Origin: an uncultured Lachnospiraceae bacterium
Lineage (GTDB): Bacteria > Bacillota_A > Clostridia > Lachnospirales > Lachnospiraceae
Direction: 5' to 3'
NCBI GenBank assembly: GCA_902780985.1
Contig: CACZHN010000015.1
Coordinates: forward strand, 1-25,163
Length of the DNA: 25,163 nt
Shown: piece after piece, positions 10,443 to 23,174 of the stretch
Layout of the letters: the number at the start of each line of letters is the position of its first letter
Position numbering within the stretch: position 1 is the stretch's first letter
Translations under genes and position numbers: made by a program
The notes under the pieces: model-generated
Seen by the model: only the letters and a program-made list of their open reading frames with translations
What the model was told of the DNA's origin: nothing
Databases searched by the model: none

Positions 10443-12830
10443 ATGGCTGATTGGATCGTAGTTGTAGATGATGATTCGACTAACCTTAAAATGGCGGGAC
10501 ATATCCTGAGTAAGCACAACAAGCGCGTGACGGCACTTAAGTCCGGACAGGCACTGCTTGACTATGTAAAGGTGAATACACCTGATATTGTGCTGCTCGA
10601 TATTAAGATGCCGGGGATGGACGGTTTTGAAACTCTGGAGAAGCTCCGTGAGCTTGAGAAAGAGATGAATCTTGAAGAGATTCCCGTTATATTCCTTACT
10701 GCAGACGAAGATATAAGTACAGAGAGCCGCGGTTTCAAGATGGGTGTTTCCGATTATATCAGAAAGCCTTTTGACCCGGAGATTCTCGTAAGAAGAATAG
10801 ATAACATTCTTGATAAGCAGGAAATGATCCAGCATTATCAGGAAGAAGCTACCCGTGATAAACTGACGGGACTTTTCAATAAGGCGGCAATCCATGAAAA
10901 ACTGGGTTATATCTGCCGCAGAACTTCAGGTTATTTCCTTATGATCGACCTGGACAGCTTTAAGCTGGTAAATGACCTGCACGGTCATGATATGGGCGAT
11001 AAAATCCTCATAGCCTTTGCCGAAACCATCAGAGAAGCAGCCGATCAGGACGCTGTTATCGGAAGAATCGGTGGTGATGAGTTCGTCCTCTTTTCAGAAA
11101 AGATAAATTCCGAAGATGACATACGAATAATTACAGAGAATATAAATGTGAACTTCCTGAAGAGAGCCAAGGCTCTTATCGGAGAGGAAATGGATATCCC
11201 TCTGGGTGCATCCGTAGGTGCCATGTACGTATCCGGTGCAGGTTCCGAGTTCACGGACATTTTCAATGCTGCCGACAAGGCGCTCTATAAGGTAAAACAG
11301 AACGGAAAGCACGGCTATGCTCTTTACAATTATGAGGATTTCGAAGAGGTTGAAGATACACAGCTTATGAACCTCAAGACTATCAGCATGATCCTTTCCG
11401 AGAGAAATATATCCAACACAGCGCTTCAGCTGGGACAGGATTCCTTCGTACATGTATACAGATTCGTCATGCGTTATATCATGAGATATCACAGAAATGC
11501 ATGTAAGCTTCTTTTTACGCTGCAGCCTATCGGTGAGCAGTCCGAGAGTGAGTTTGCGGCAAACTGTGACAGATTCTGTGCTCATGCCAGCGGCGTGCTT
11601 CGTAAGAGCGATCTGGTAATGCAGTGCAGAAAGAATCAGATATTTGTATTACTGACAGACATCAAGGAAGAAGCCATCAAGCAGGTTGTGGGAAATATCA
11701 TCAGAACCTGGAGCAGAGACGAGGGTGATATACTGACGGTTTCCTACGAAGTTGAATTCATGGAATCCGACGACCTTATGCATGCCAGCGATGAACAGCC
11801 TTGGGTAGCGGTGGTTGATGACGATGTTGCCAATCTTAAGCTTGCGGGTCATGTTCTCAGCAAGAACAACATGCGTGTAACGGCACTTAAGTCGGGAAGA
11901 GCACTTCTGGATTTCCTGAAGGAAAGCAGACCGAATCTTATACTTCTGGATGTTAAGATGCCGGATATGGACGGATTCGAGACCATGTCCAAGCTTATGG
12001 CCATGGAAGAAGATGTAGCCGAGATCCCGGTTATCTTCCTTACGGCAAATGATGAAGTGGAGTCGGAGAAGAAGGGACTTGCCCTTGGGGCTACGGACTT
12101 TATCAGAAAGCCTTTCGTACCGGAAGTTCTGGTAATGAGAGTAAGACAGATCATCAACATGATCAGACTCCAGAGAAATCTGGCTCAGGAAGTTGCAAAG
12201 AAGACAAAAGAGAACGAAGAACTGTTCCTGGATGTGGTTAAGTCTCTTGCAGAGGCTATCGATGCAAAGGATACATATACAAACGGTCATTCCGACAGAG
12301 TAGGTCAGTATTCCAGAGAGATAGCAAAGAGATACGGCTATAATACCAAAGAACAGTCTGATATATACATGATGGGACTTCTTCATGATGTAGGTAAGAT
12401 CGGTGTGCCTGATACGGTAATCAATAAGCCGGGCAAGCTTACGGAAGAAGAGTTCGAAGAGATAAAGAGACATCCGGTTGTGGGACACCAGATCCTGAAG
12501 AATATCAAGGAGATGCCGAGTCTGGCTACAGGTGCGCGCTGGCATCATGAAAGATATGACGGAACCGGTTACCCTGACGGACTGGCAGGTGAGCAGATCC
12601 CTGAAGCCGCAAGGATCATCGCGGTGGCGGATGCCTATGATGCCATGACCAGCTACAGAAGTTACAGAGATGTACTTCCTCAGGATAAGGTCAGAAGCGA
12701 GCTGGTGGAAGGAAGCGGAACCCAGTTCGATCCTAAGTTTGCAAAGATCATGGTGGATATGATCGATGAAGATATTAACTATGATATGAAAGAGGTAAAG
12801 TCTTCCCACGAAGATTACCTGAATATATAA
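10443..12830 (+). CDS. Hybrid c-di-GMP protein: REC-GGDEF-degenerate GGDEF-REC-HD-GYP
   Basis: A 795-residue cytoplasmic protein with five modules. REC1 (4-122) has acidic D9-D11, phospho-acceptor D53, T86 and K108. The diguanylate cyclase domain (135-297) has an intact GGDEF at 210-214; the RxxD inhibitory site is replaced by DQDA. Residues 325-440 look like a second GGDEF fold without the catalytic motif (LRKSDLVMQCRKNQIFVLL stands where it should be). REC2 (453-572) has D503. HD-GYP (590-775) has H648-D649 and GYP at 709-711, so c-di-GMP hydrolysis should be possible. REC1 and REC2 share long identical stretches (TALKSG, ALLD, DGFET), so an internal duplication is likely. ATG 10443 has GGGGAGA upstream. 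surE follows 19 bases later, probably in one transcript. Confidence 0.92.
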   Translation: MADWIVVVDDDSTNLKMAGHILSKHNKRVTALKSGQALLDYVKVNTPDIVLLDIKMPGMDGFETLEKLRELEKEMNLEEIPVIFLTADEDISTESRGFKMGVSDYIRKPFDPEILVRRIDNILDKQEMIQHYQEEATRDKLTGLFNKAAIHEKLGYICRRTSGYFLMIDLDSFKLVNDLHGHDMGDKILIAFAETIREAADQDAVIGRIGGDEFVLFSEKINSEDDIRIITENINVNFLKRAKALIGEEMDIPLGASVGAMYVSGAGSEFTDIFNAADKALYKVKQNGKHGYALYNYEDFEEVEDTQLMNLKTISMILSERNISNTALQLGQDSFVHVYRFVMRYIMRYHRNACKLLFTLQPIGEQSESEFAANCDRFCAHASGVLRKSDLVMQCRKNQIFVLLTDIKEEAIKQVVGNIIRTWSRDEGDILTVSYEVEFMESDDLMHASDEQPWVAVVDDDVANLKLAGHVLSKNNMRVTALKSGRALLDFLKESRPNLILLDVKMPDMDGFETMSKLMAMEEDVAEIPVIFLTANDEVESEKKGLALGATDFIRKPFVPEVLVMRVRQIINMIRLQRNLAQEVAKKTKENEELFLDVVKSLAEAIDAKDTYTNGHSDRVGQYSREIAKRYGYNTKEQSDIYMMGLLHDVGKIGVPDTVINKPGKLTEEEFEEIKRHPVVGHQILKNIKEMPSLATGARWHHERYDGTGYPDGLAGEQIPEAARIIAVADAYDAMTSYRSYRDVLPQDKVRSELVEGSGTQFDPKFAKIMVDMIDEDINYDMKEVKSSHEDYLNI

Positions 12831-13563: not shown

Positions 13564-13592
13564 TTAATTGGTTGGGTTTAAGGAGAAGAGAA

Positions 13593-15911
13593 ATGTTCAA
13601 GAGAAAATTTAAAGCTGTTTCCATGGGGATCTGTATGGCAATGGTGGCTGCAGGCTGCGGTTCGCAGACTGCAACACCTACGACTACAGCAGCAACTGAG
13701 GCAACAACAGCAGCCACAACAGAGGATGCTACGGAAGCGACCTCCGGTGATGCGGGTGCGGCAACAGAAGCTGTCCTTAAGGGAGAAGGCCCTGCAACTC
13801 TCGAGGATCTGGTGGATAATTCCGAGCAGGAAAGCGGTATCAGTGACGGAGATGTGGTGGTTGATATCAACTTTGATGACGGCGATACCACAGGATTCGG
13901 CTCATTCGTAAACGGCGGAGATTATGTGCTTTCGGCCGAGAACGGACAGCTTGTTTGTGACATTTCCAAGTGCGGAGATCTGGACTATGCAAACCAGGTA
14001 TTCTTCGACGGCCTTGAACTTAGTCACGGATGCGTATATACATACAGCTTCGATATTTCATCGGATATAGACAGAAAGGTGGAGTACAGACTCCAGCTTA
14101 ACGGCGGTGATTATCATGCGTATGTAAGTGACTACATTGAAGTCGGCACTGAAGTGCGGAATATCTCGGTGGATTTTGAAATGGCCGATGCTTCAGACCC
14201 TGCACCGCGACTCTGCTTCAATATGGGTAAGATGGACAATATGGATGCGGATCCGGGACAGCATAAGGTATATATCGATAACATAAAGCTGGTGGTTAAG
14301 GATGCTTCCCAGGCTCAGGCAATATCGGGATTGCCTAACTATGTAGGCGTTTCGGTAAATCAGCTTGGTTACAAGCCTGAAGATAAGAAATATGCGGTTG
14401 TAAAGAGCGACAAGATCACATCAGACAGTTTTATCGTATGTGATGCCGCTACAAATGAGACGGTTTATGAAGGAACCCTCGGTGCCGATATCTACGATGA
14501 AGGTGCCGACATGGACGTTAAGATAGCTGATTTCTCGGATCTTAAGGATGCGGGACAGTACTATGTGGTTACCGACGGCGGAGCAAGTTATCCTTTCGCG
14601 GTGTCCGATAATCCTTACGGTGACGCATATAAGGATGTTGTGCTCATGCTTTACAGACAGCGCTGCGGTATGGCAATCGACGGCGACTTCGCACATCCTG
14701 AGTGCCATATGGATAAGGCAGTCGTATATGGAAATGAATCGGTTACCAAGGACGTTACCGGCGGATGGCATGATGCCGGCGACTACGGACGTTATGTGGT
14801 ATCAGGTGCGGAAGCCGTTGCTGATATCATGATGGCTTACGAAGATTTCAAGATCTCCGATGATGACTGGGGAATCCCTGAAAGCGGAAACGGAATCCCT
14901 GATATTCTGGATGAGGCACGCTATGAGCTCGACTGGATGCTGAAAATGCAGGATGAAGCTACAGGCGGTGTATACCATAAGGTAACAGGCCTCGCATTTC
15001 CGGGTACTGTAAATCCGGATGAAGAGACAGAGACCATGTATCTTATGCCGATCTCATTTACGGCTACCGGAGATTTTGCTGCTGTTATGGCAAAGGCATC
15101 GGTGCTTTACAAGGATTTCGATCCTGAATTCTCGGCAAAGGCATATGCTGCTGCAGAGAAGGCATGGAATTATATAGCTGACGAAGTTGATCTTGCGGGA
15201 TACAAGAATCCTGAAGATTGTGATACGGGAGAATATCCTGACAGAAATACAAAGGACGAGAAGTATTGGGCAGCCGCAGAACTTTACATTGCGGGAAGAG
15301 AAGACCTTGAGCCGGTTGTTAAGGAACTCCGTGCGGACGGAAGAGTATTCCCCGGTCTCGGATGGCTGGAACTGACTTACTATGCGGATTACGATCTGGC
15401 TAAGTACCTTCCGGGTACAGACATGGGAGACCAGGCAAGAGAGCTCCTTATCGCAGATGCGGATGAAGTGGTTGAGGCTTCACAGGCCAGCGGTTACTTT
15501 ACAGGTATGGCAAAATACCCATGGGGAAGTAATATGACCGTTGCAAACCATGCGGAACTTCTTCTTATGGCTCATAATCTGACAGGAGACGATAAGTACA
15601 GAGAGACTGCAAAGAGACAGCTTGATTATATATTCGGAATAAATCCGCTGGGTTACTGCTATGTATCTGGTTACGGAACACTGTTCCCGACACAGCCTCA
15701 CCACAGACCTTCACAGGTTGCGGGAAAGGCTGTTCCGGGTATGCTGGCGGGAGGACCTAACGGCGGTCTTGACGATCCGTTCGCAAAGACAGTGCTTGAC
15801 GGACAGAGCCAGGCAATGTGCTATGTGGACAACATGCAGAGCTATGCTACAAACGAAGTGGCGATTTACTGGAATTCACCGCTTATTTACGCTATGTCGG
15901 GCCTCAGATAA
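13593..15911 (+). CDS. Lipoprotein endoglucanase, glycoside hydrolase family 9 with CBM4/9-like module
   Basis: 772 residues, exported and probably lipid-anchored to hydrolyse beta-1,4-glucan at the cell surface. The signal peptide ends MVAAGC, with C22 the lipidation cysteine. A Thr/Ala/Glu linker (23-65) follows, then a CBM4/9-like jelly-roll (about 85-236), an Ig-like CelD_N domain (248-338) and the GH9 catalytic domain (340-772). GH9 landmarks are GGWHDAGDYGRYV (390-402) with the catalytic aspartates, PHHRPS (702-707), and NEVAIYWNSPL (754-764) with E755 as acid. ATG 13593 has AAGGAG 7 bases upstream; a TTG at 13572 is in frame but is followed by an unlikely start. No clear terminator follows before the next promoter. 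Not a cellulosomal enzyme: no dockerin is seen. Confidence 0.94.
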   Translation: MFKRKFKAVSMGICMAMVAAGCGSQTATPTTTAATEATTAATTEDATEATSGDAGAATEAVLKGEGPATLEDLVDNSEQESGISDGDVVVDINFDDGDTTGFGSFVNGGDYVLSAENGQLVCDISKCGDLDYANQVFFDGLELSHGCVYTYSFDISSDIDRKVEYRLQLNGGDYHAYVSDYIEVGTEVRNISVDFEMADASDPAPRLCFNMGKMDNMDADPGQHKVYIDNIKLVVKDASQAQAISGLPNYVGVSVNQLGYKPEDKKYAVVKSDKITSDSFIVCDAATNETVYEGTLGADIYDEGADMDVKIADFSDLKDAGQYYVVTDGGASYPFAVSDNPYGDAYKDVVLMLYRQRCGMAIDGDFAHPECHMDKAVVYGNESVTKDVTGGWHDAGDYGRYVVSGAEAVADIMMAYEDFKISDDDWGIPESGNGIPDILDEARYELDWMLKMQDEATGGVYHKVTGLAFPGTVNPDEETETMYLMPISFTATGDFAAVMAKASVLYKDFDPEFSAKAYAAAEKAWNYIADEVDLAGYKNPEDCDTGEYPDRNTKDEKYWAAAELYIAGREDLEPVVKELRADGRVFPGLGWLELTYYADYDLAKYLPGTDMGDQARELLIADADEVVEASQASGYFTGMAKYPWGSNMTVANHAELLLMAHNLTGDDKYRETAKRQLDYIFGINPLGYCYVSGYGTLFPTQPHHRPSQVAGKAVPGMLAGGPNGGLDDPFAKTVLDGQSQAMCYVDNMQSYATNEVAIYWNSPLIYAMSGLR

Positions 15912-15916
15912 AAATT

Positions 15917-15945
15917 TTGGCATCGACAGCGGTATGTGGTAAAAT
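15917..15945 (+). promoter_or_regulatory. Promoter of the diguanylate cyclase-AAA-AKR-RyR operon
   Basis: TTGGCA (15917-15922), a 17-base spacer and TAAAAT (15940-15945) start six bases after the GH9 stop. The predicted transcript starts near 15952 and has a leader of about 57 bases. Confidence 0.6.
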
Positions 15946-15950
15946 AGGAA

Positions 15951-15993
15951 TTGGTGAAAGCTAGCATTTCAACCGAATTATGAATTTCGAATT
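15951..15993 (+). promoter_or_regulatory. Leader hairpin and GAATT period-7 tandem repeat
   Basis: TTGGTGAAA (15951-15959) pairs with TTTCA-A-CC plus flanking bases (15967-15976), giving a bulged hairpin at the predicted 5' end of the mRNA. Three GAATT units follow at 15975, 15982 and 15989, each 7 bases apart, just before the ribosome site. It is too short to be a c-di-GMP riboswitch. Confidence 0.35.
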
Positions 15994-16008
15994 TGGTGGG
16001 TGTTTGTT

Positions 16009-17079
16009 ATGGGGATTTATAACTTTATAACAAAGGATATTTCAGCGGAAAATGAAACCAAGAGGGTTATAGTGTCGATAAGGATTCTGTACATTATAGC
16101 CTTCTTCGCCTACGTCCTTGATACGGCGTGGGCCGGACTTAGTGCGGCAAAAATGTTTCCGTACCGCACTATAGCGATCCCGATATTCATTATCGCACTT
16201 TTCATACATACATACTTATCAAAGACTCGTCCTGTGGTCATGCTTTTCATGACATTTATCTTCGTATGGATATTCTTTATGATACCCGTATACGGATGGA
16301 GCGCAGGTATGCAGAACTACTTCATCTTAACTCTTATGATGTGCTTTTTCGCATCTCACGGAAGACTCCTTTATAAGTTTCTTTATGCGGGATTTATTCT
16401 TGTGATAAGAATCCTTACTATCGGAATATTCGGCGGCATGAAGTCTCAGGCGGGGGTATCCGCTCTTGAAGACAAGGTGCTCCAGATCACCAATATCACA
16501 GCTGTTTTTACGGCTATTATTTTCATATCATATTATTACAGCCAGAGAGAAAACGAAGCCGAAAGCAAACTTATGAGATATAACGATCAGCTGAAGGCGG
16601 AGGCCAGTACGGATCAGCTTACGGGACTTTTCAACAGACGTAAAGCCAAGGAGTATCTTGCCGAGCTCAAAGTTGCCGACGCAGAGAACGGTATCAGTGT
16701 TGCTATAGGAGATATCGACTTTTTCAAGAAAGTTAATGATACATACGGTCATGATGCGGGGGATGAGGTTCTGAAATTTATCGCGAACCTTATGAGAGCG
16801 GAATGCAGAAGCGATTCCTTTATAGCCAGATGGGGCGGTGAGGAATTCCTTTTGGTGTTCCCGGACTGCAACGGCGACAATGCTTATGTGGCATTGGAAG
16901 GACTTCGTAATGTCATAAGAAAATCCGTAATAAAGGTAAAAGATCAGGAAATAAAGATTACCATGACCTTCGGATTGGCTGAAATCGGATATGACAAGGA
17001 CGAACATGCCGCTATAAAAGAAGCGGACGAAAAGCTTTACATAGGAAAGCAGAACGGAAGGAATCAGGTTGTTTTCTAG
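16009..17079 (+). CDS. Membrane-bound diguanylate cyclase (GGDEF)
   Basis: 356 residues. Five to six transmembrane helices cover about residues 20-176 with no recognised extracellular sensor domain. A short linker helix leads into a GGDEF domain (200-356) that makes c-di-GMP from two GTP. The active site is intact as GGEEF (276-280), with GDIDFFKKVNDTYGHDAGD (234-252) for substrate and metal binding. The RxxD inhibitory site is not in the standard register (RSDS). ATG 16009 has GGTGGG 8 bases upstream; a GTG at 16000 is also in frame. It is the first gene of a five-gene operon, and its stop codon directly abuts the ATG of the AAA ATPase gene. The MASE-like membrane region suggests that it senses a membrane or small-molecule signal. 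Confidence 0.92.
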   Translation: MGIYNFITKDISAENETKRVIVSIRILYIIAFFAYVLDTAWAGLSAAKMFPYRTIAIPIFIIALFIHTYLSKTRPVVMLFMTFIFVWIFFMIPVYGWSAGMQNYFILTLMMCFFASHGRLLYKFLYAGFILVIRILTIGIFGGMKSQAGVSALEDKVLQITNITAVFTAIIFISYYYSQRENEAESKLMRYNDQLKAEASTDQLTGLFNRRKAKEYLAELKVADAENGISVAIGDIDFFKKVNDTYGHDAGDEVLKFIANLMRAECRSDSFIARWGGEEFLLVFPDCNGDNAYVALEGLRNVIRKSVIKVKDQEIKITMTFGLAEIGYDKDEHAAIKEADEKLYIGKQNGRNQVVF

Positions 17080-18303
17080 ATGATTGAGAATGCTAAGATA
17101 CTTAAAACCGAAAATATAGACAATGCAAAATTCGGATCGAGAGACGGTGAAATGATTACCCGCGAAAGGGTAAGAAATCTGGAACTCTCGGTCCTCTTTG
17201 ACGATACGGGGAGAAGATATTTCCTTAGGATCACATTTCAGACTGTCCGCGGAGAGGAACAGGATGAAGATACCACGGAGATCATGCTTGATGTGAGAAA
17301 CTGCAAGGTGACTCACAGAAAGAATTCGCTGATACATGTGGTGAAGGATGACATTTCTGCCAGGGAATACATACTGGGAAGTATGTCCGAAGATGATTTT
17401 AACAGGATGGACAGTTTTCTTTCCGGCTATGTTCTTAAGAACAGGAACACGGAGACCAGAAGAAGCAAGGGACTTATGTCGGTGCTTCCTTTCAGAAAGA
17501 ATCCGTATGAAAGACTGGACAGACTTGTAGGTCTCGAGAGTATCAAGAAGGATATCAAGGATACCGCAAGCTTTGCACTGGTGCAGAAGAAGAGGAGAGA
17601 GTTCGGACTTCATAATGTTCCGGTTTCGCTGCACCTTGTGTTTACCGGCAATCCGGGAACGGGAAAGACTACTATAGCCCGTATGCTGGCGGCAATCTAT
17701 AAAGATATCGGAGTTCTTTCGAAGGGCCACCTGGTGGAAGTAGACAGATCCGCTCTTGTTGCGGGTTACGTGGGACAGACTGCCATCAAGACCCAGAAGA
17801 AGATACAGGAAGCCATGGGTGGAATACTTTTCATAGACGAAGCTTATTCCCTTGTGAGCACGGGAAATGACTTCGGACAGGAAGCTATCAATACCATCCT
17901 TAAAGCCATGGAAGATTACCGCGAGGACCTTATAGTCATCGTTGCGGGGTATCCGGAGCTTATGGAGGATTTCATCGAGAGTAATCCGGGACTTAAATCC
18001 CGTTTCAACAAATACATCAATTTCCCTGACTACAGTGCGGATGAACTGGTAAGGATATTCAGAACTTTCTGTAAGGAATACGATTATCATCTGGACAGAG
18101 ATGCGGAGAAGGAACTGAAGAGCCTCATCGAAAAGATTGAGGGAGAAAAGGAAGAAGATTTTGCAAATGCGCGAACCATCAGAAATCTGTTCGAGAAGGT
18201 GGTTACGTGCCAGGCGAGAAGAATAGCCTTCGAAAGCTCTGATAAGGATCAGCTTACATGTATTACAGCAGAAGATGTGGACGCAGGTGGAAATGATGAG
18301 TAA
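17080..18303 (+). CDS. CbbX/SpoVK-type AAA+ ATPase with novel N-terminal domain
   Basis: 407 residues. Residues 1-125 form a beta-rich domain I do not recognise. The AAA module follows (about 140-400): Walker A GNPGTGKT (190-197), pore loop AGYVGQT (228-234), Walker B GGILFIDEAYS (247-257) with D253 and E254, and the arginine finger R308 in GLKSRFNKYINFP. This is the CbbX/SpoVK/EccA-like class, whose members work as hexameric remodelling machines. The ATG immediately follows the TAG of the cyclase gene without a gap, so it is probably translated by coupling. The unknown N-terminus is likely the substrate adaptor. Neighbours suggest a membrane complex as client; the client itself is not identified. 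Confidence 0.9.
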   Translation: MIENAKILKTENIDNAKFGSRDGEMITRERVRNLELSVLFDDTGRRYFLRITFQTVRGEEQDEDTTEIMLDVRNCKVTHRKNSLIHVVKDDISAREYILGSMSEDDFNRMDSFLSGYVLKNRNTETRRSKGLMSVLPFRKNPYERLDRLVGLESIKKDIKDTASFALVQKKRREFGLHNVPVSLHLVFTGNPGTGKTTIARMLAAIYKDIGVLSKGHLVEVDRSALVAGYVGQTAIKTQKKIQEAMGGILFIDEAYSLVSTGNDFGQEAINTILKAMEDYREDLIVIVAGYPELMEDFIESNPGLKSRFNKYINFPDYSADELVRIFRTFCKEYDYHLDRDAEKELKSLIEKIEGEKEEDFANARTIRNLFEKVVTCQARRIAFESSDKDQLTCITAEDVDAGGNDE

Positions 18304-19351
18304 TGAGAATGTAACATTGAAGAAAAAGGCGCCGATACTGCAATTGGTGATAACATTGGCGTTTTTGATAGTGCTGGATATATCGAGTAAAAAAAGTAAT
18401 GCCGCATATGTGGTATCGCTGGCACTGTCTGTGCTGGTGGTTGTGTTCGGAGTGGATTTTCTGATAAAGACCCTCTGGTATGCCTGTGATAAAGAGAAAT
18501 ATGTGGTAGTAAGAAAGAGTTCCCTTGAAAACAAAACAGCGGAGAACTTTTTGAGTGAAAATAGAAAAACAGAAGAAAGATATTATGCAATAGGCGGTAT
18601 TGCAGGAACTGTGATCGCGACTGTGGGCGTGGTCTATGAAAGTTTTTACGTGTTGGATCCCGCAAAAAGAACCGGAGGCCTTGTTTTTATATTTCTGCTG
18701 ATGTATGCGGTTTGGTTTTTTATCCTGCGTATAGGGAAAAAGAAAATATCGGAAAATAGCCGGAAAATGGTAAGACTGTGCGACCCTGAGCTTATGTTCG
18801 ATGTTATGGAGCAGAAAAGAACAAGGATACATTCCTCCGTTGATACGGCATCGATCCTTTTTGTTCAGGTTCTGGCGGCATATTACATGGAAGATGAAAA
18901 GCTTATGAGAGATAAGTTTTCCAAGTTTGCCGGCATAAATAAGAATTATATCGATGAAGTTCTGGCTATAGGCTTTCTGGGATCGATGGCCATAAATAAC
19001 AGCGATCAACAGGGGTATGAAAGAGCTGTCGCAAAGCTTAAAGAAGCCGGAGAGAAGGGAGCGGCATATCCTAATGTGGCAAAAGCCTGCGATTACGTGA
19101 GAAATAAGTGGCAGGTTCAGATAGGGGTAAGAGATAATGATCCGGATGTATCCCTGGATATGGCGGCCGATACATTTGATCAGGTAAGAGATTACAGACC
19201 GATAAATATGGAATATACATATCTGATCGCAAGGGTTCAGGAGATGAAGGGACTTACGGATCTGGCGAAAAGCAACTACAGGGTGGTTGCGGATTCTGCC
19301 GGTAAACTGAAGTTCAGAGAACTTGCGGAAGAAAGACTCAGAGAGGCTTAA
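18296..19351 (+). CDS. Four-TM membrane protein with helical-repeat C-terminus, family not recognised
   Basis: 351 residues. Two N-terminal helices (about 13-30 and 38-58), a charged stretch, then two more (about 97-117 and 126-146), followed by about 200 residues of soluble, helical, TPR-like sequence (for example AVAKLKEAGEKGAAYPNVAKA and NMEYTYLIARVQEMKG). I do not recognise the family and assign no function. Candidate starts are ATG 18293 and ATG 18296, which overlap the AAA stop; 18296 is better spaced from AGGTGG. The next gene starts directly after its stop. A membrane scaffold that presents a repeat domain to the cytoplasm, perhaps to the AAA partner, would fit the context, but that is inference. 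Confidence 0.8.
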   Translation: MSNENVTLKKKAPILQLVITLAFLIVLDISSKKSNAAYVVSLALSVLVVVFGVDFLIKTLWYACDKEKYVVVRKSSLENKTAENFLSENRKTEERYYAIGGIAGTVIATVGVVYESFYVLDPAKRTGGLVFIFLLMYAVWFFILRIGKKKISENSRKMVRLCDPELMFDVMEQKRTRIHSSVDTASILFVQVLAAYYMEDEKLMRDKFSKFAGINKNYIDEVLAIGFLGSMAINNSDQQGYERAVAKLKEAGEKGAAYPNVAKACDYVRNKWQVQIGVRDNDPDVSLDMAADTFDQVRDYRPINMEYTYLIARVQEMKGLTDLAKSNYRVVADSAGKLKFRELAEERLREA

Positions 19352-20308
19352 ATGAAGAAAATTACAGACGGAGACTGCGTTCCCGTTATGCTGGGAACCT
19401 GGGCCTGGGGCGACAAGTTAAGCTTCGGCGGAGAGTATCCGGAGGAGGAACTTTCCGGTCTTTTTAACAGGGCGATGTCCGAAGGCTTTAAAATGTGGGA
19501 CACGGCCTATGTTTACGGGTACGGAAAGAGCGAACGCGTACTCGGAGGTTTTTTAAGGGAGAAGGATCCCGATGATTATATACTTTCGGATAAATTCACA
19601 CCTTATCATGCCAAGGATTTTCCCGAAGATCCCGTAAGGCTTATGGCTGAGGAAAGCTTGAAGAATCTGGGACTTCCTCACATGGATATATACTGGATCC
19701 ATAATCCCATGAAGTACCGGGAGTGGATACCGGCTCTGGCCGAATTGAAGAAGGAAGGGATCATTTCCGAGATAGGACTATCCAACTTCAGCCTTAGAGA
19801 GGTGCAGGACGCAGAAGCACTTTTAGCGGAGTGCGGGATAACTCTTTACGGAGTGCAGAATCATTACAGCCTGCTGTGCAGATCTTCGGAGACTTCGGGG
19901 ATCATAGATTACTGTAACGGCAAAGGAATACATTTCTTCAGTTATATGCTGCTGGAACAGGGGGCTCTGACGGGACGATATACCGCGGAGATGCCTTTCG
20001 AACAGGGCTCGGGAAGAGGGAAGAATTACAACAAGGTCCTCGGAAGATATGAGGAACTTAATAAGATACTGAAAGATATCGCCGACGGTTACGGGATAAG
20101 CCAAGCCTCGCTTATGACGGCCTGGGGCCTTGCAAAGGGTACGGTTCCCATAGTCGGTGTTACAAAGGAAAGATATATAGATGATATAATGTCGGCGGTC
20201 CGGGCGAAACTTCGGGAAGACGACATCCTGCAGATGGAAAGGACGGCGGAAGAGTCCGGCCTCAGAACTATCCGTGTGTGGGAGAAAGAGATGAAGAAAG
20301 ATGCTTAG
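19352..20308 (+). CDS. Aldo/keto reductase, Kv-beta-like branch
   Basis: A 318-residue NADPH-dependent TIM-barrel oxidoreductase. The catalytic tetrad is complete: D50 and Y55 (MWDTAYVYGYGKSERVLG), K81 (ILSDKF) and H117 (IYWIHNP). Further family motifs are IGLSNFSLREVQDAE and, near the C-terminus, VPIVGVTKERYIDDI for NADP binding. It reduces carbonyls in vitro in many family members; the substrate here is unknown. The ATG abuts the preceding TAA, with GAGAGG in front, and its 3' end overlaps the RyR gene by eight bases, so it is very probably co-translated with it. In animals this fold also serves as the beta subunit of Kv channels, which is notable next to a channel-like gene. Confidence 0.92.
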   Translation: MKKITDGDCVPVMLGTWAWGDKLSFGGEYPEEELSGLFNRAMSEGFKMWDTAYVYGYGKSERVLGGFLREKDPDDYILSDKFTPYHAKDFPEDPVRLMAEESLKNLGLPHMDIYWIHNPMKYREWIPALAELKKEGIISEIGLSNFSLREVQDAEALLAECGITLYGVQNHYSLLCRSSETSGIIDYCNGKGIHFFSYMLLEQGALTGRYTAEMPFEQGSGRGKNYNKVLGRYEELNKILKDIADGYGISQASLMTAWGLAKGTVPIVGVTKERYIDDIMSAVRAKLREDDILQMERTAEESGLRTIRVWEKEMKKDA

Positions 20309-21776
20309 GAAGATCGAAAAGTTAATAAAGCTGTTCTGCTGGCTTCCGTTCCTTATAGCATATATAGGTTATTATGCCATAGGAGACGGTGGGGAGACCA
20401 TGTCTGCGGCAGAGTCGGTGTATGCGGCCATTGCCATTTACTTCGTAAATCCGGTAAATGAAATGAGCAACTGGGCCATACTTACCGGTGAGCTTTTATC
20501 GGTTGTAGTTATCACATCCTTCCTTATTTCTGCGGTGATCAGGATCAAGATGTTTATCAAGTACTGGATCATAAGAAAAAAGGGCGGATCCGTTGCGGTC
20601 TATTCGGGACCTGCAGAGATTGACGATGACGATCTGGATAACGGTTCGGCCATGAGCCCTGCGGAAAGATATGTGGACGGAGATCCGAGAAGTTATATTG
20701 CGGGAGATAAGCCCGAAAAGACGGAAAATCATATCCTTATGTTTAATGATGATATTACCGCACTGGACTTCTTCCATCAGTATGCATCCGAACTGGGACA
20801 GGGCCAGGTTTATATCTGCTTCAACAGAATTGATCAGATGCTTATCGCCAACAGCATAGAAAGCGAAGAATATAAGAATGTACATTTCTGTAATCTGAAC
20901 GACCTTACGGCCAGACATTACTGGAAGAACAACAGTCTTATAGACAGCGCTTACGAAGGCAGAAATCTGAAGATCGCGGTTACGGAATGCAATGATATAG
21001 GAAAGGCTATCATAAAATATGCCTACCTTAACAATGTATTCAGCCTGAAGACAAGTGTGGAGTACCACGTCTGGGGATGTGATGTCATAACATCCGGTTT
21101 CTATAAAGAACTGGATACCATGAACGACGACAAGATCATAGTTCATGAAGGAAAACCGGAAGAGGATATCGATATCCTTGCGAAGATGGACAGAGTTATC
21201 CTTACACAGGATGCTTCGCTCAACATGCTCCAGCAGCTCATGTATATAAATGCGGATGCGGAGCTTCACTGCTACACGGAAAGTGAAGCTAACCTGGGAG
21301 GAGTATACGGCCGCAAGGGACTTATAACCTTCGGTGCGGCTAAGAACATTATAAGCAGAGATAATATAATAGATGATAAGATGTCCAAGGTGGCAAAGCT
21401 TGTGAACTACGATTATCATCTTCAGTATTCCGGCGGTACTGCCAACAGAGATACTCTTGAAGAAGATATGGAAGCACAGTGGAAGGAGCTCGGCGGATTC
21501 CTCAGAGGAAGCAATATTGCCAGAGCCGATCATCTGTGGATAGAAAAATATCTGCAGAAAAAGGGCGTTCCCGAAGAGGCTTTGATGGAACTGGAGCACG
21601 TAAGATGGTGCAGGTTCCATTTCTATAACAGATGGAAGCAGGGCGGAGAAAAGAAGGATGCCGCAAAGAAGCTTCACCCTATGCTGGTGCCTTTCGACAA
21701 GCTTCCGGAAAGCGAGAAACGCAAGGATAATGTAACGGATCCTGTCATCCGCGAAGAAATAGAAAAAATGTTATAA
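20301..21776 (+). CDS. Channel-like two-TM protein with Rossmann/TrkA-N-like region and C-terminal RyR domain
   Basis: 491 residues. TM1 (about 10-27), a pore-helix-like amphipathic stretch (36-52) and TM2 (60-82) resemble a 2TM ion channel. An acidic linker is followed by a cytosolic alpha/beta region (about 142-370) with NHILMFNDD, VYICFNRIDQMLIANSI and KIAVTECNDIGKAIIKYA, compatible with tandem Rossmann/RCK folds. The last 85 residues (405-489) are an RyR domain: MELEHVRWCRFHFYNRWKQG, KKLHPMLVPFDKLPESEKRKD. Prokaryotic RyR domains are thought to bind a nucleotide-like ligand. ATG 20301 overlaps the reductase stop. The RyR call is strong; the channel call rests on topology. It is the last gene of the operon. 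No clear terminator follows; the rpmE promoter starts within eight bases. Confidence 0.82.
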   Translation: MLRKIEKLIKLFCWLPFLIAYIGYYAIGDGGETMSAAESVYAAIAIYFVNPVNEMSNWAILTGELLSVVVITSFLISAVIRIKMFIKYWIIRKKGGSVAVYSGPAEIDDDDLDNGSAMSPAERYVDGDPRSYIAGDKPEKTENHILMFNDDITALDFFHQYASELGQGQVYICFNRIDQMLIANSIESEEYKNVHFCNLNDLTARHYWKNNSLIDSAYEGRNLKIAVTECNDIGKAIIKYAYLNNVFSLKTSVEYHVWGCDVITSGFYKELDTMNDDKIIVHEGKPEEDIDILAKMDRVILTQDASLNMLQQLMYINADAELHCYTESEANLGGVYGRKGLITFGAAKNIISRDNIIDDKMSKVAKLVNYDYHLQYSGGTANRDTLEEDMEAQWKELGGFLRGSNIARADHLWIEKYLQKKGVPEEALMELEHVRWCRFHFYNRWKQGGEKKDAAKKLHPMLVPFDKLPESEKRKDNVTDPVIREEIEKML

Positions 21777-21783
21777 AATCCTC

Positions 21784-21812
21784 TTGCATTTAATTTTTTC
21801 CTATGATATTAT
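21784..21812 (+). promoter_or_regulatory. rpmE promoter
   Basis: TTGCAT (21784-21789), a 17-base spacer and TATTAT (21807-21812) make a strong sigma-70-type promoter. The hexamers lie within a loose inverted repeat, CCTCTTGCAT (21780-21789) and ATGCAGAGG (21811-21819). Confidence 0.65.
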
Positions 21813-21839
21813 GCAGAGGTTACTGGTATGGAATCGAGG

Positions 21840-21879
21840 TATAACATAGCAGGATTTTCGGAAACCTGCTAAGGTTATA
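21840..21879 (+). ncRNA. Structured rpmE leader (candidate L31 autoregulatory element)
   Basis: A two-part stem: TATAAC (21840-21845) with GTTATA (21874-21879), then TAGCAGG (21847-21853) with CCTGCTA (21865-21871), separated by a 1x2 internal loop and capped by a U-rich/A-rich apical loop. It lies in the 5' leader, 40 bases before the L31 start codon. Ribosomal-protein leaders that bind their own product are common, and L31 leaders are known in Firmicutes; identity with that family is not tested here. Confidence 0.5.
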
Positions 21880-21919
21880 TAGTGTTTCATATACGTTAAT
21901 ATTAAAGGAGATTACAAAG

Positions 21920-22129
21920 ATGAGAGAAGGAATCCATCCGGATTACTACCAGGCAAAGGTTGTTTGCAACTGTGGTAATGAGTTCGTAACAGGATCAACA
22001 AAGGAAGATATCCACGTTGAAATTTGTTCAAAGTGCCATTCATTCTATACAGGACAGCAGAAGGCTATCCAGGCACGTGGACGTATCGATAAGTTCAACA
22101 AGAAGTATGGCGTTCAGACTGAGAACTAG
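21920..22129 (+). CDS. rpmE: 50S ribosomal protein L31, zinc-binding form
   Basis: A 69-residue protein of the large ribosomal subunit. It starts [10 protein letters not shown], and the zinc ligands are C16, C18, C36 and C39 (CNCG and CSKC), which marks the zinc-containing (C+) L31 type rather than the zinc-free YtiA/L31B type. ATG 21920 has AAGGAG 9 bases upstream. Its own promoter and a leader hairpin precede it and an intrinsic terminator follows, so it is mostly a monocistronic unit at the head of the conserved rpmE-yqhQ-prmC-prfA neighbourhood. Confidence 0.97.
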
Positions 22130-22155
22130 ATAACTTAAGTAAGAAATGTCAACAG

Positions 22156-22198
22156 AGCAGATAAGCTGTGGATTTTTTTCACGCGCTTATCTGCTTTT
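22156..22198 (+). terminator. Intrinsic terminator between rpmE and yqhQ
   Basis: AGCAGATAAGC (22156-22166) pairs perfectly with GCTTATCTGCT (22185-22195), with a further GTG/CAC pairing inside, followed by T residues and ATTT. The loop is long (about 18 bases, or 9 if the inner pairs form). Readthrough into yqhQ is possible, as no separate promoter is obvious in the 19 bases before that gene. Confidence 0.8.
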
Positions 22199-22217
22199 AA
22201 ATTTAAAGGAAAAAACT

Positions 22218-23174
22218 ATGAAAAGAGTTAGTATAGGCGGACAGGCAGTGCTGGAAGGCATCATGATGAAGGGACCGGAGTCATATGCACTTGCTGTAAG
22301 GAAACCGGACAAAGAGATCGATGTTCAGGTCACACCTTACAAATCTCTCGGAGAGAAGCATAAGCCTGCGAATCTCCCTATAGTAAGGGGAGTCATAAAT
22401 TTCATAGAATCGTTATATATCGGCATGAGTACTCTTATGAAGTCTTCGGAATACTTCGAAGATGAAGAAGAGGAGAATAAGAAGAGTAAGAAAACTAAGG
22501 AAGAAAAGCCGAAGGATAAGGAAAAGAGCAGTGCCGGAGACAAGGCGTCTCTTGTATTTACACTGTTTGTTTCACTGGCTATTGCCATCGGAATATTCAT
22601 GCTCTTTCCCGCATTTCTTGCGAAGCTGATCTTTAAAGAAGGAACCAACGAGCTTCTGATCAACCTTACGGAAGGTGTTATGAGACTTGTTATCTTCATA
22701 GTATATGTGGCTCTTATCTCCATGATGGAAGATATAAAGAGAACCTTTATGTACCACGGAGCAGAGCATAAGACCATCAACTGCCTTGAAGCCGGCGATG
22801 ATCTTACCGTAGAAAATGTAAGAAAGCATACAAGATTCCATAAGAGATGCGGAACGAGTTTTGTATTTATCGTAATGATAGTCAGCATCGTGGTATTCAT
22901 GTTCGTAAGAACGGAAACCATGTGGCTCAGACTTCTTTCGAGACTTCTTCTTATACCTGTTATCGCAGGTATCTCATATGAGTTTATAAGATATGCCGGA
23001 AAGCATAACAATGCATGTTCGACGATCCTTTCACAGCCGGGGCTCTGGGTTCAGAGGCTTACTACGAAAGAGCCGGACGACAGCATGATAGAAGTAGCTA
23101 TAAAGTCGGTCGAAGCAGTTATCGACTGGCGTGAATATGTAAAATGTGTCAGAGACGATTCCTTTGAAAAGTGA
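22218..23174 (+). CDS. yqhQ: DUF1385 family membrane protein YqhQ
   Basis: 318 residues. The conserved DUF1385 N-terminus GGQAVLEGIMMKGPE is followed by about four membrane helices between residues 108 and 265 and the family hallmark YHGAEHKTINCLEAGD with TRFHKRCGTSF. The function is unknown; the His- and Cys-rich block suggests a metal site. A highly charged Lys/Glu stretch (about 77-106) before the first helix looks like a variable linker. The frame opens at 22146, but that lies in the terminator; ATG 22218 has AAAGGA in front and begins with the conserved MKRVSIGGQ. The gene sits upstream of prmC and prfA as in other clostridia. Confidence 0.93.
   Translation: MKRVSIGGQAVLEGIMMKGPESYALAVRKPDKEIDVQVTPYKSLGEKHKPANLPIVRGVINFIESLYIGMSTLMKSSEYFEDEEEENKKSKKTKEEKPKDKEKSSAGDKASLVFTLFVSLAIAIGIFMLFPAFLAKLIFKEGTNELLINLTEGVMRLVIFIVYVALISMMEDIKRTFMYHGAEHKTINCLEAGDDLTVENVRKHTRFHKRCGTSFVFIVMIVSIVVFMFVRTETMWLRLLSRLLLIPVIAGISYEFIRYAGKHNNACSTILSQPGLWVQRLTTKEPDDSMIEVAIKSVEAVIDWREYVKCVRDDSFEK

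Follow-up and report, generated by a model that had tools for sequence, protein, structure and literature searches.

Introduction

RyR domains that bind ADP-ribose (ADPR)-type signals in phage have been reported (PMC13232231), as have RCK channels and TIR effectors. In that May 2026 preprint, four residues in the RyR domain of the phage protein RyDEP bind cyclic ADP-ribose (cADPR) isomers, and RyDEP is presented as an anti-defence enzyme whose homologues act as sponges. Judged by title and start of the abstract, no other paper among the matches listed by our literature search dealt with RyR domains in the immunity of prokaryotes or phages; the combination of TIR with a RyR channel was not seen among them, and a systematic TIR preprint may already describe TIR-RyR pairs. 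Here, a 25,163-nucleotide stretch of an uncultured Lachnospiraceae bacterium (contig CACZHN010000015.1; hereafter, the window) was analysed, in which five co-directional genes (16009-21776, + strand) encode a diguanylate cyclase (DGC), an AAA ATPase (AAA), a protein with about four transmembrane (TM) segments (TM4), an aldo/keto reductase (AKR) and a RyR-domain protein (RyR). This run looks like a composite of an older four-gene block and a RyR newcomer, and the best reading of RyR is that of an orphan, at the 3′ end of the operon, of a TIR-linked channel family gated by ADPR-type signals.

The window RyR resembles RyDEP (R12, PF02026) in that its ligand residues, H-x-x-W followed by H and D, are spaced alike, and differs from the phage protein in being bacterial and membrane-bound, with domains that look like a pore and a gating unit. 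With the RCK channels and transporters of the GsuK, TrkA, KtrAB and CASTOR type it shares, by the predicted model, a tandem Rossmann gating unit and a 2TM pore (the latter as in GsuK); unlike them, it lacks TVGYG, the selectivity filter of K+ channels, carries a C-terminal RyR domain and shows ~9-13% sequence identity. Animal ryanodine receptors are ion channels that carry an R12 domain homologous to that of the window protein, with the ligand histidines and the tryptophan aligned, but the window protein has one R12 copy, and the size and remaining architecture of the receptors are different. As in Thoeris and other TIR systems, relatives of RyR combine a TIR gene with an adjacent presumed effector having an ADPR-type ligand site; however, this effector is channel-like, rather than SIR2-SLOG or macro-domain as named in PMC11204291, and no TIR accompanies the window RyR among the 21 open reading frames (ORFs) scanned. 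Finally, the window AAA has the AAA and lid domains in common with CbbX/SpoVK, being 44% identical to CbbX, and differs from them in having its own N-domain and in scoring below the equivalog cut-offs.

Gene order of the locus and architecture of the RyR protein

The features of the locus were the following:

15917..15945, + strand: sigma-70-like promoter with extended -10, upstream of DGC (10/12 matches, TG before the -10)
16009..17079, + strand: putative membrane diguanylate cyclase (DGC), GGEEF motif; part of the conserved block
17080..18303, + strand: CbbX/SpoVK-type AAA+ ATPase (AAA), AAA and lid at residues 187-400, N-domain at residues 1-131
18296..19351, + strand: TM4, about four TM segments and a tail; fast-evolving orphan with an 8-bp overlap with AAA in four genomes
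19352..20308, + strand: aldo/keto reductase (AKR), PF00248, with D50, Y55, K81 and H117
20301..21776, + strand: RyR-domain channel-like protein (RyR), predicted as TM1, pore-type helix, TM2, two Rossmann/RCK-like domains and C-terminal RyR domain
21597..21728, + strand: ligand-residue segment of RyR, H433 (21597-21599), W436, H459 and D476 (21726-21728), codon positions computed from the RyR start at 20301
21920..22129, + strand: rpmE, presumably ribosomal protein L31, conserved right-hand border

The five ORFs that the first-pass annotation had placed head to tail were all found at its coordinates, on the + strand, and its junctions, recomputed from the ORF coordinates, were exact: DGC/AAA (17079/17080) and TM4/AKR (19351/19352) abut with 0 bp, and AAA/TM4 (18296-18303) and AKR/RyR (20301-20308) overlap by 8 bp. 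Its product types also held (GGDEF, SpoVK/CbbX-type AAA, about four TM segments with a tail, AKR of PF00248 and RyR of PF02026), and its channel-like view of the last one is supported by the predicted 2TM/Rossmann model. The run is flanked by a GH9 gene (13572-15911) and by rpmE, a name that we take from a reading of the ORF.

Regarding RyR, PF02026 was matched at residues 426-477 (33.0 bits, curated cut-off of 27.4), and the protein models as a 2TM pore followed by two Rossmann units and the C-terminal RyR domain. The nearest folds of the model include TrkA, KtrAB, CASTOR and GsuK, with some dehydrogenases scoring alike, and the topology of RCK K+ channels (2TM, pore helix and Rossmann gating domains) was found in the predicted model alone. 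The place of the selectivity filter holds FVNPV, in which N50 and P51 were invariant in 22 sequences. Moreover, H433, W436, H459 and D476 correspond to H75, W78, H100 and D117 of RyDEP and were invariant or nearly so in 22 sequences, being retained in 58, 59, 54 and 38, respectively, of 61 aligned RyR segments of all architectures (window included). The A1 profile and PDB chain 35tm_A aligned over equal-length stretches (418-464 and 76-122), and the four residues fall, from the offsets, at positions 76, 79, 101 and 118 of the chain, each one above the published number, as would be expected if 35tm_A is RyDEP carrying an additional residue. RyR was also under strong purifying selection (omega of 0.04-0.08, with dS near saturation).

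Conservation of the block in related genomes

The gene order of the window was matched in Lachnospiraceae bacterium UBA2864 (G001), namely SurE, GH9, DGC, AAA, TM4, AKR, RyR and DUF1385, while isolate RUG222 (G002), whose contig begins inside AKR, presented AKR, RyR and DUF1385, with neither an AAA orthologue nor TM4 found in the remainder of the assembly. A search of 61 genus genomes gave AAA orthologues that include the N-domain in G001, G421, G449 and G454; G432 had a partial orthologue (residues 69-400, 64%). Genome G449 had DGC, AAA, TM4, AKR, rpmE and DUF1385, with RyR absent from the block; G421 had the same order, also without RyR, plus a helicase gene inserted between DGC and AAA; and G454 had SurE, AAA, rpmE and DUF1385, with DGC, TM4, AKR and RyR all absent there. 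Thus, AAA-TM4-AKR is a stable core, present at four of the five loci with a full AAA when the window is counted; DGC usually precedes it, and RyR may be there or not. Among the loci examined, RyR stood between AKR and rpmE solely in the window, G001 and G002, three species in which the AKR-RyR junction is tight. The distance from RyR to rpmE was ~143 bp in the window and ~155 bp in both G001 and G002, and that from AKR to rpmE was ~179 bp in G449 and ~164 bp in G421.

The spread of RyR was patchy, appearing in 8 of the 61 genus genomes (in one case as a weak domain-only match), in 52 of 397 family genomes, many of these matches being domain-only or of other architecture, and in 7 of 398 genomes of a phylum sample, including G263 and three with low-score domain-only pieces. 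Searches with tblastn at E 1e-5 gave no match in phage records, and one Arcobacter record covering 28% of the query was matched among plasmids. Because of this patchy spread and of the other genomic contexts in which RyR occurs, a gain in the clade of the window is favoured over losses in G421 and G449, and RyR is probably a later addition to the block. In the window, where the run looks composite, a compact gene order was by itself no mark of a single system. Regarding the adjacency of the AAA, TM4 and RyR orthologues, on which the first-pass annotation had staked its operon, RyR was rarely adjacent to the others, whereas the AAA-TM4 pair was kept; likewise, the operon-like unit stands for AAA-TM4-AKR in the window, G001, G421 and G449, but RyR is no part of it in G421 and G449. 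The idea of RyR as cargo of a mobile element was dropped, as tRNAs were sought and none found, integrases and repeats not having been searched.

Association of RyR relatives with TIR genes

A TIR_2 match over the cut-off was present in 39 of 57 RyR-bearing genomes. Considering 63 RyR and 92 TIR places, a TIR gene lay within 1.5, 3 and 5 kb of RyR in 13, 16 and 20 cases, while 0.18, 0.29 and 0.44 were expected from the TIR density of each genome, figures to be read with TIR_2 (PF13676) as the only TIR family, with rounded genome sizes and with related genomes that are not independent. For this count, the pieces of one gene were merged, the G030-type repeat entry was counted once and the weak G427 match was left out. 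At 17 of the 20 places within 5 kb both genes were on the same strand. The TIR partners had TIR-MORN, TIR-TPR and TIR-LRR architectures, or TIR with a STAND-type domain and TPR, and a glutamate seems by eye to be retained in the aligned TIR segments at what we take to be the catalytic-type position.

In a quick tree of 45 channel-type RyR proteins, with long branches, other architectures left out and class and TIR labels set by hand, 10 rows were TIR-linked. The label needs seven changes (losses counting as changes), at least six of them forced by starred branches, and it was somewhat clustered, since 16 of 500 shuffles were as low. Furthermore, a set of 86 neighbour proteins was compiled from 85 of 105 ORFs plus the TIR protein of locus L039 (20 short, very long, genus-clade or contig-end ORFs being left out). 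TIR_2 was found in 15 of them (14 of the 85 first neighbours and the second-neighbour TIR of L039), and 19 PADLOC models were matched at E 1e-10, mostly by one protein each and with no control set for comparison.

RyR relatives were also found beside a kinase-regulator pair or a STAND NTPase. A genus RyR subclade (L041, L121, L122 and L123) adjoins a response-regulator/histidine-kinase pair, as assigned by Pfam on L122 only, and FtsX-type ABC genes are also near RyR in L041, L121 and L122. The compact three-gene set at L039:5710-10675, made up of TIR-Sel1/TPR, STAND-type NTPase and RyR channel genes, is a good candidate for a full system; in G232, a TIR-Sel1/TPR gene overlaps a STAND-type gene, after which RyR follows. 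At L151:8179-10302, the neighbour of a RyR gene had a weak Castor_Poll_mid match below the cut-off and may be another gene for a channel-like protein; a TIR lies ~4 kb away from the RyR match there. Tandem RyR pairs were observed in L057, L129 and L131, combining a protein of ~600-680 aa (at least four hydrophobic stretches) and one of ~520-545 aa (two or three), which suggests hetero-oligomers of two architectures. A PDB search with the L157 RyR protein returned nothing useful.

The DGC, AAA, TM4 and AKR genes

The sequence of DGC carries the GG[DE]EF signature of an active diguanylate cyclase as RWGGEEF (PF00990, E 6.5e-36), making it a putative one. Its start is more likely the ATG at 16009 than the GTG at 16000, because the 76%-identical G001 orthologue begins there. 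The promoter called good by the first-pass annotation, TTGGCA-17-TAAAAT, was the best of seven sites, and a similar extended -10 was seen by eye 5′ of DGC in G001, G449 and G421, but seven sites are fewer than the shuffled mean of 12.3. No Rfam family exceeded its gathering score in 15900-22250. The third gene upstream of DGC (window 10443-12830; L125:3347-5794 in G001) encodes two response-regulator domains with GGDEF and HD, a product combining domains of the types that make and break cyclic di-GMP (c-di-GMP).

Regarding AAA, its model matched CbbX 3syk_B (44% identity, Foldseek E 1.0e-25), and the best 50 Foldseek rows for the whole model were, by their titles, AAA-type ATPases or assemblies holding them. 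It remained below the equivalog cut-offs of SpoVK (302.2 vs. 422.95 bits) and CbbX (251.1 vs. 459.25 bits). The N-domain (17080-17472; residues 1-131) is predicted to have seven strands and a C-terminal helix, PH-like by eye, and had no PDB sequence match at E 10. In PADLOC, AAA matched AAA-bearing models only (best IetA, 41.7 bits), the other four block proteins had no match at E 0.1 and no model names the five-gene set. The AKR residues D50, Y55, K81 and H117 are presumably the catalytic tetrad.

The 8-bp AAA/TM4 overlap recurred in all four genomes found with the pair adjacent (window, G001, G421 and G449), which is more than chance. TM4 had no Pfam family over the cut-off and no PDB chain at E 1 with a 15-row profile, and a protein search gave one match, 99% identical. 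Between the window and G001, TM4 showed 37% identity, against 75-88% for the seven other genes compared, and a dN of 0.62 against 0.09-0.18 (about three- to sevenfold), dN being the safer figure as dS was saturated or nearly so in many pairs and the omegas are rough. TM4 is a fast-evolving family. Its relatives were found in 14 of the 61 genus genomes, in 11 of which they are situated elsewhere, with no AAA of the block type within the fetched regions; in 9 of these 11 loci a gene of cluster c5 is adjoining or one gene off, the only scanned member of which has a sulfatase domain. Among the 397 family genomes, TM4 was limited to G001 and one short match. The fast dN together with the fixed 8-bp overlap (window 18296-19351, L125:11260-12315, L078:6713-7789 and L080:6399-7490) may reflect coevolution of AAA and TM4 as partners, or conflict.

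Discussion

The reading of the locus as a genus operon plus a separate RyR module, the latter being a 2TM channel gated by an ADPR-type nucleotide, is judged slightly better than even. DGC, AAA, TM4 and AKR would be a genus-level chromosomal operon ending at rpmE, with AAA and its fast-evolving membrane partner TM4 as a translationally coupled pair; at a guess, this would be a remodelling machine of the AAA type, anchored in the membrane and expressed together with a local c-di-GMP synthase. RyR would be an independent module that came to lie behind AKR and ahead of rpmE in the clade of the window, a 2TM channel having an RCK-like gating assembly and an R12 domain that may bind cADPR isomers or a kindred ADP-ribose-type nucleotide; binding would alter the gating ring, the pore would open or close, and ion balance or membrane potential would shift. 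In many relatives, the signal may be made by the neighbouring TIR protein with sensor repeats, while for the window RyR it would be made in trans. Two points weigh against such a signal for the window protein, namely the lack of a TIR among its 21 scanned ORFs and an identity to TIR-linked relatives of at most ~40%. In G001, four TIR matches over the cut-off lie away from the block.

Compatible with this and with the other readings, it is fairly probable that RyR is an accidental insertion using the promoter of the block without functional tie to DGC, AAA, TM4 or AKR, since RyR is placed exactly between AKR and rpmE with similar spacing to rpmE with and without it (~143-155 vs. ~164-179 bp), although the AKR-RyR junction is tight in three species. 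Alternatively, RyR may be a CASTOR/GsuK-like channel of metabolic or ionic homeostasis that reads the NAD(H)/ADPR state and takes no part in immunity; the link to TIR genes in other genomes would then come from shared islands or from the fold being put to another use. Such a channel would fit with the activation of GsuK by ADP and NAD+ reported in PMC3510474, with clusters c17 and c18 (response regulator and histidine kinase; Pfam in G428 only) flanking RyR in G162, G403, G428 and G453, with FtsX-type ABC clusters on its other side in the first three, with a CorC/CBS neighbour in G209 and with the strong purifying selection. We consider it rather unlikely, given the excess of TIR neighbours with operon-like spacing, the PADLOC matches among the 86 neighbours (no control set) and the patchy spread (8/61 and 52/397 genomes, domain-only matches of other architecture included). 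It is improbable that RyR ends the signal, hydrolysing or sequestering ADPR-type molecules at the membrane like RyDEP, as an off-switch or antidote instead of an effector. The catalytic dyad of RyDEP (H75, D117) is retained in full as H433 and D476; nevertheless, a soluble-type enzyme would hardly be expected to be fused to pore-like and gating-ring-like parts, and other tested RyDEP homologues, though conserved, reportedly showed no signal hydrolysis (PMC13232231).

The single membrane complex proposed by the first-pass annotation, in which c-di-GMP and AAA would remodel a redox- and ligand-gated channel, appears very improbable. In its favour, its genes abut or overlap, and three species share the tight AKR-RyR junction; some channels have subunits of the AKR type (Kv-beta), and AKR weakly matched TIGR01293 (31.1 bits, cut-off of 365.4); and RyR of G153 is preceded, at 21 bp, by a different kind of AAA gene (PF00004/PF07724). 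However, the block occurs without RyR and AAA without the rest, with a helicase gene inside the G421 block, so that a five-part complex of fixed stoichiometry is not supported, and the 11 TM4 loci elsewhere are without AAA of the block type. Moreover, the 24 RyR loci outside the clade of the window (L039-L058, with L056 incomplete, and L121-L124) had no DGC, AAA, TM4 or AKR orthologue beside RyR, and distant GGDEF or AAA domain matches only in L042, L052 and L123. The c-di-GMP to AAA to redox-channel chain was not borne out either, as RyR relatives sit with TIR genes, a kinase-regulator pair or a STAND NTPase. AKR as a Kv-beta-like subunit of the RyR channel was dropped, since the blocks of G421 and G449 have AKR but not RyR. 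The suggested defence role gains support for RyR alone, which may act against phage through ADP-ribose-type signals, and not through c-di-GMP.

More broadly, we tentatively propose, at less than even confidence, that there are nucleotide-gated bacterial RyR channels in which TIR-made cADPR-type signals bind R12 and open a 2TM/RCK pore, the window protein being an orphan now wired to a c-di-GMP/AAA operon. With the same reserve, such channels may be the bacterial counterpart of the cADPR-ryanodine receptor axis proposed for animals, and the RyDEP preprint raises the question of cADPR-isomer binding for animal ryanodine receptors (PMC13232231). If RyR channels do answer TIR-made signals, they would represent a new effector class, an ion channel, for NAD-derived immune signalling, and would offer a small model from bacteria for testing the direct binding of cADPR isomers to the R12 domains of channels.

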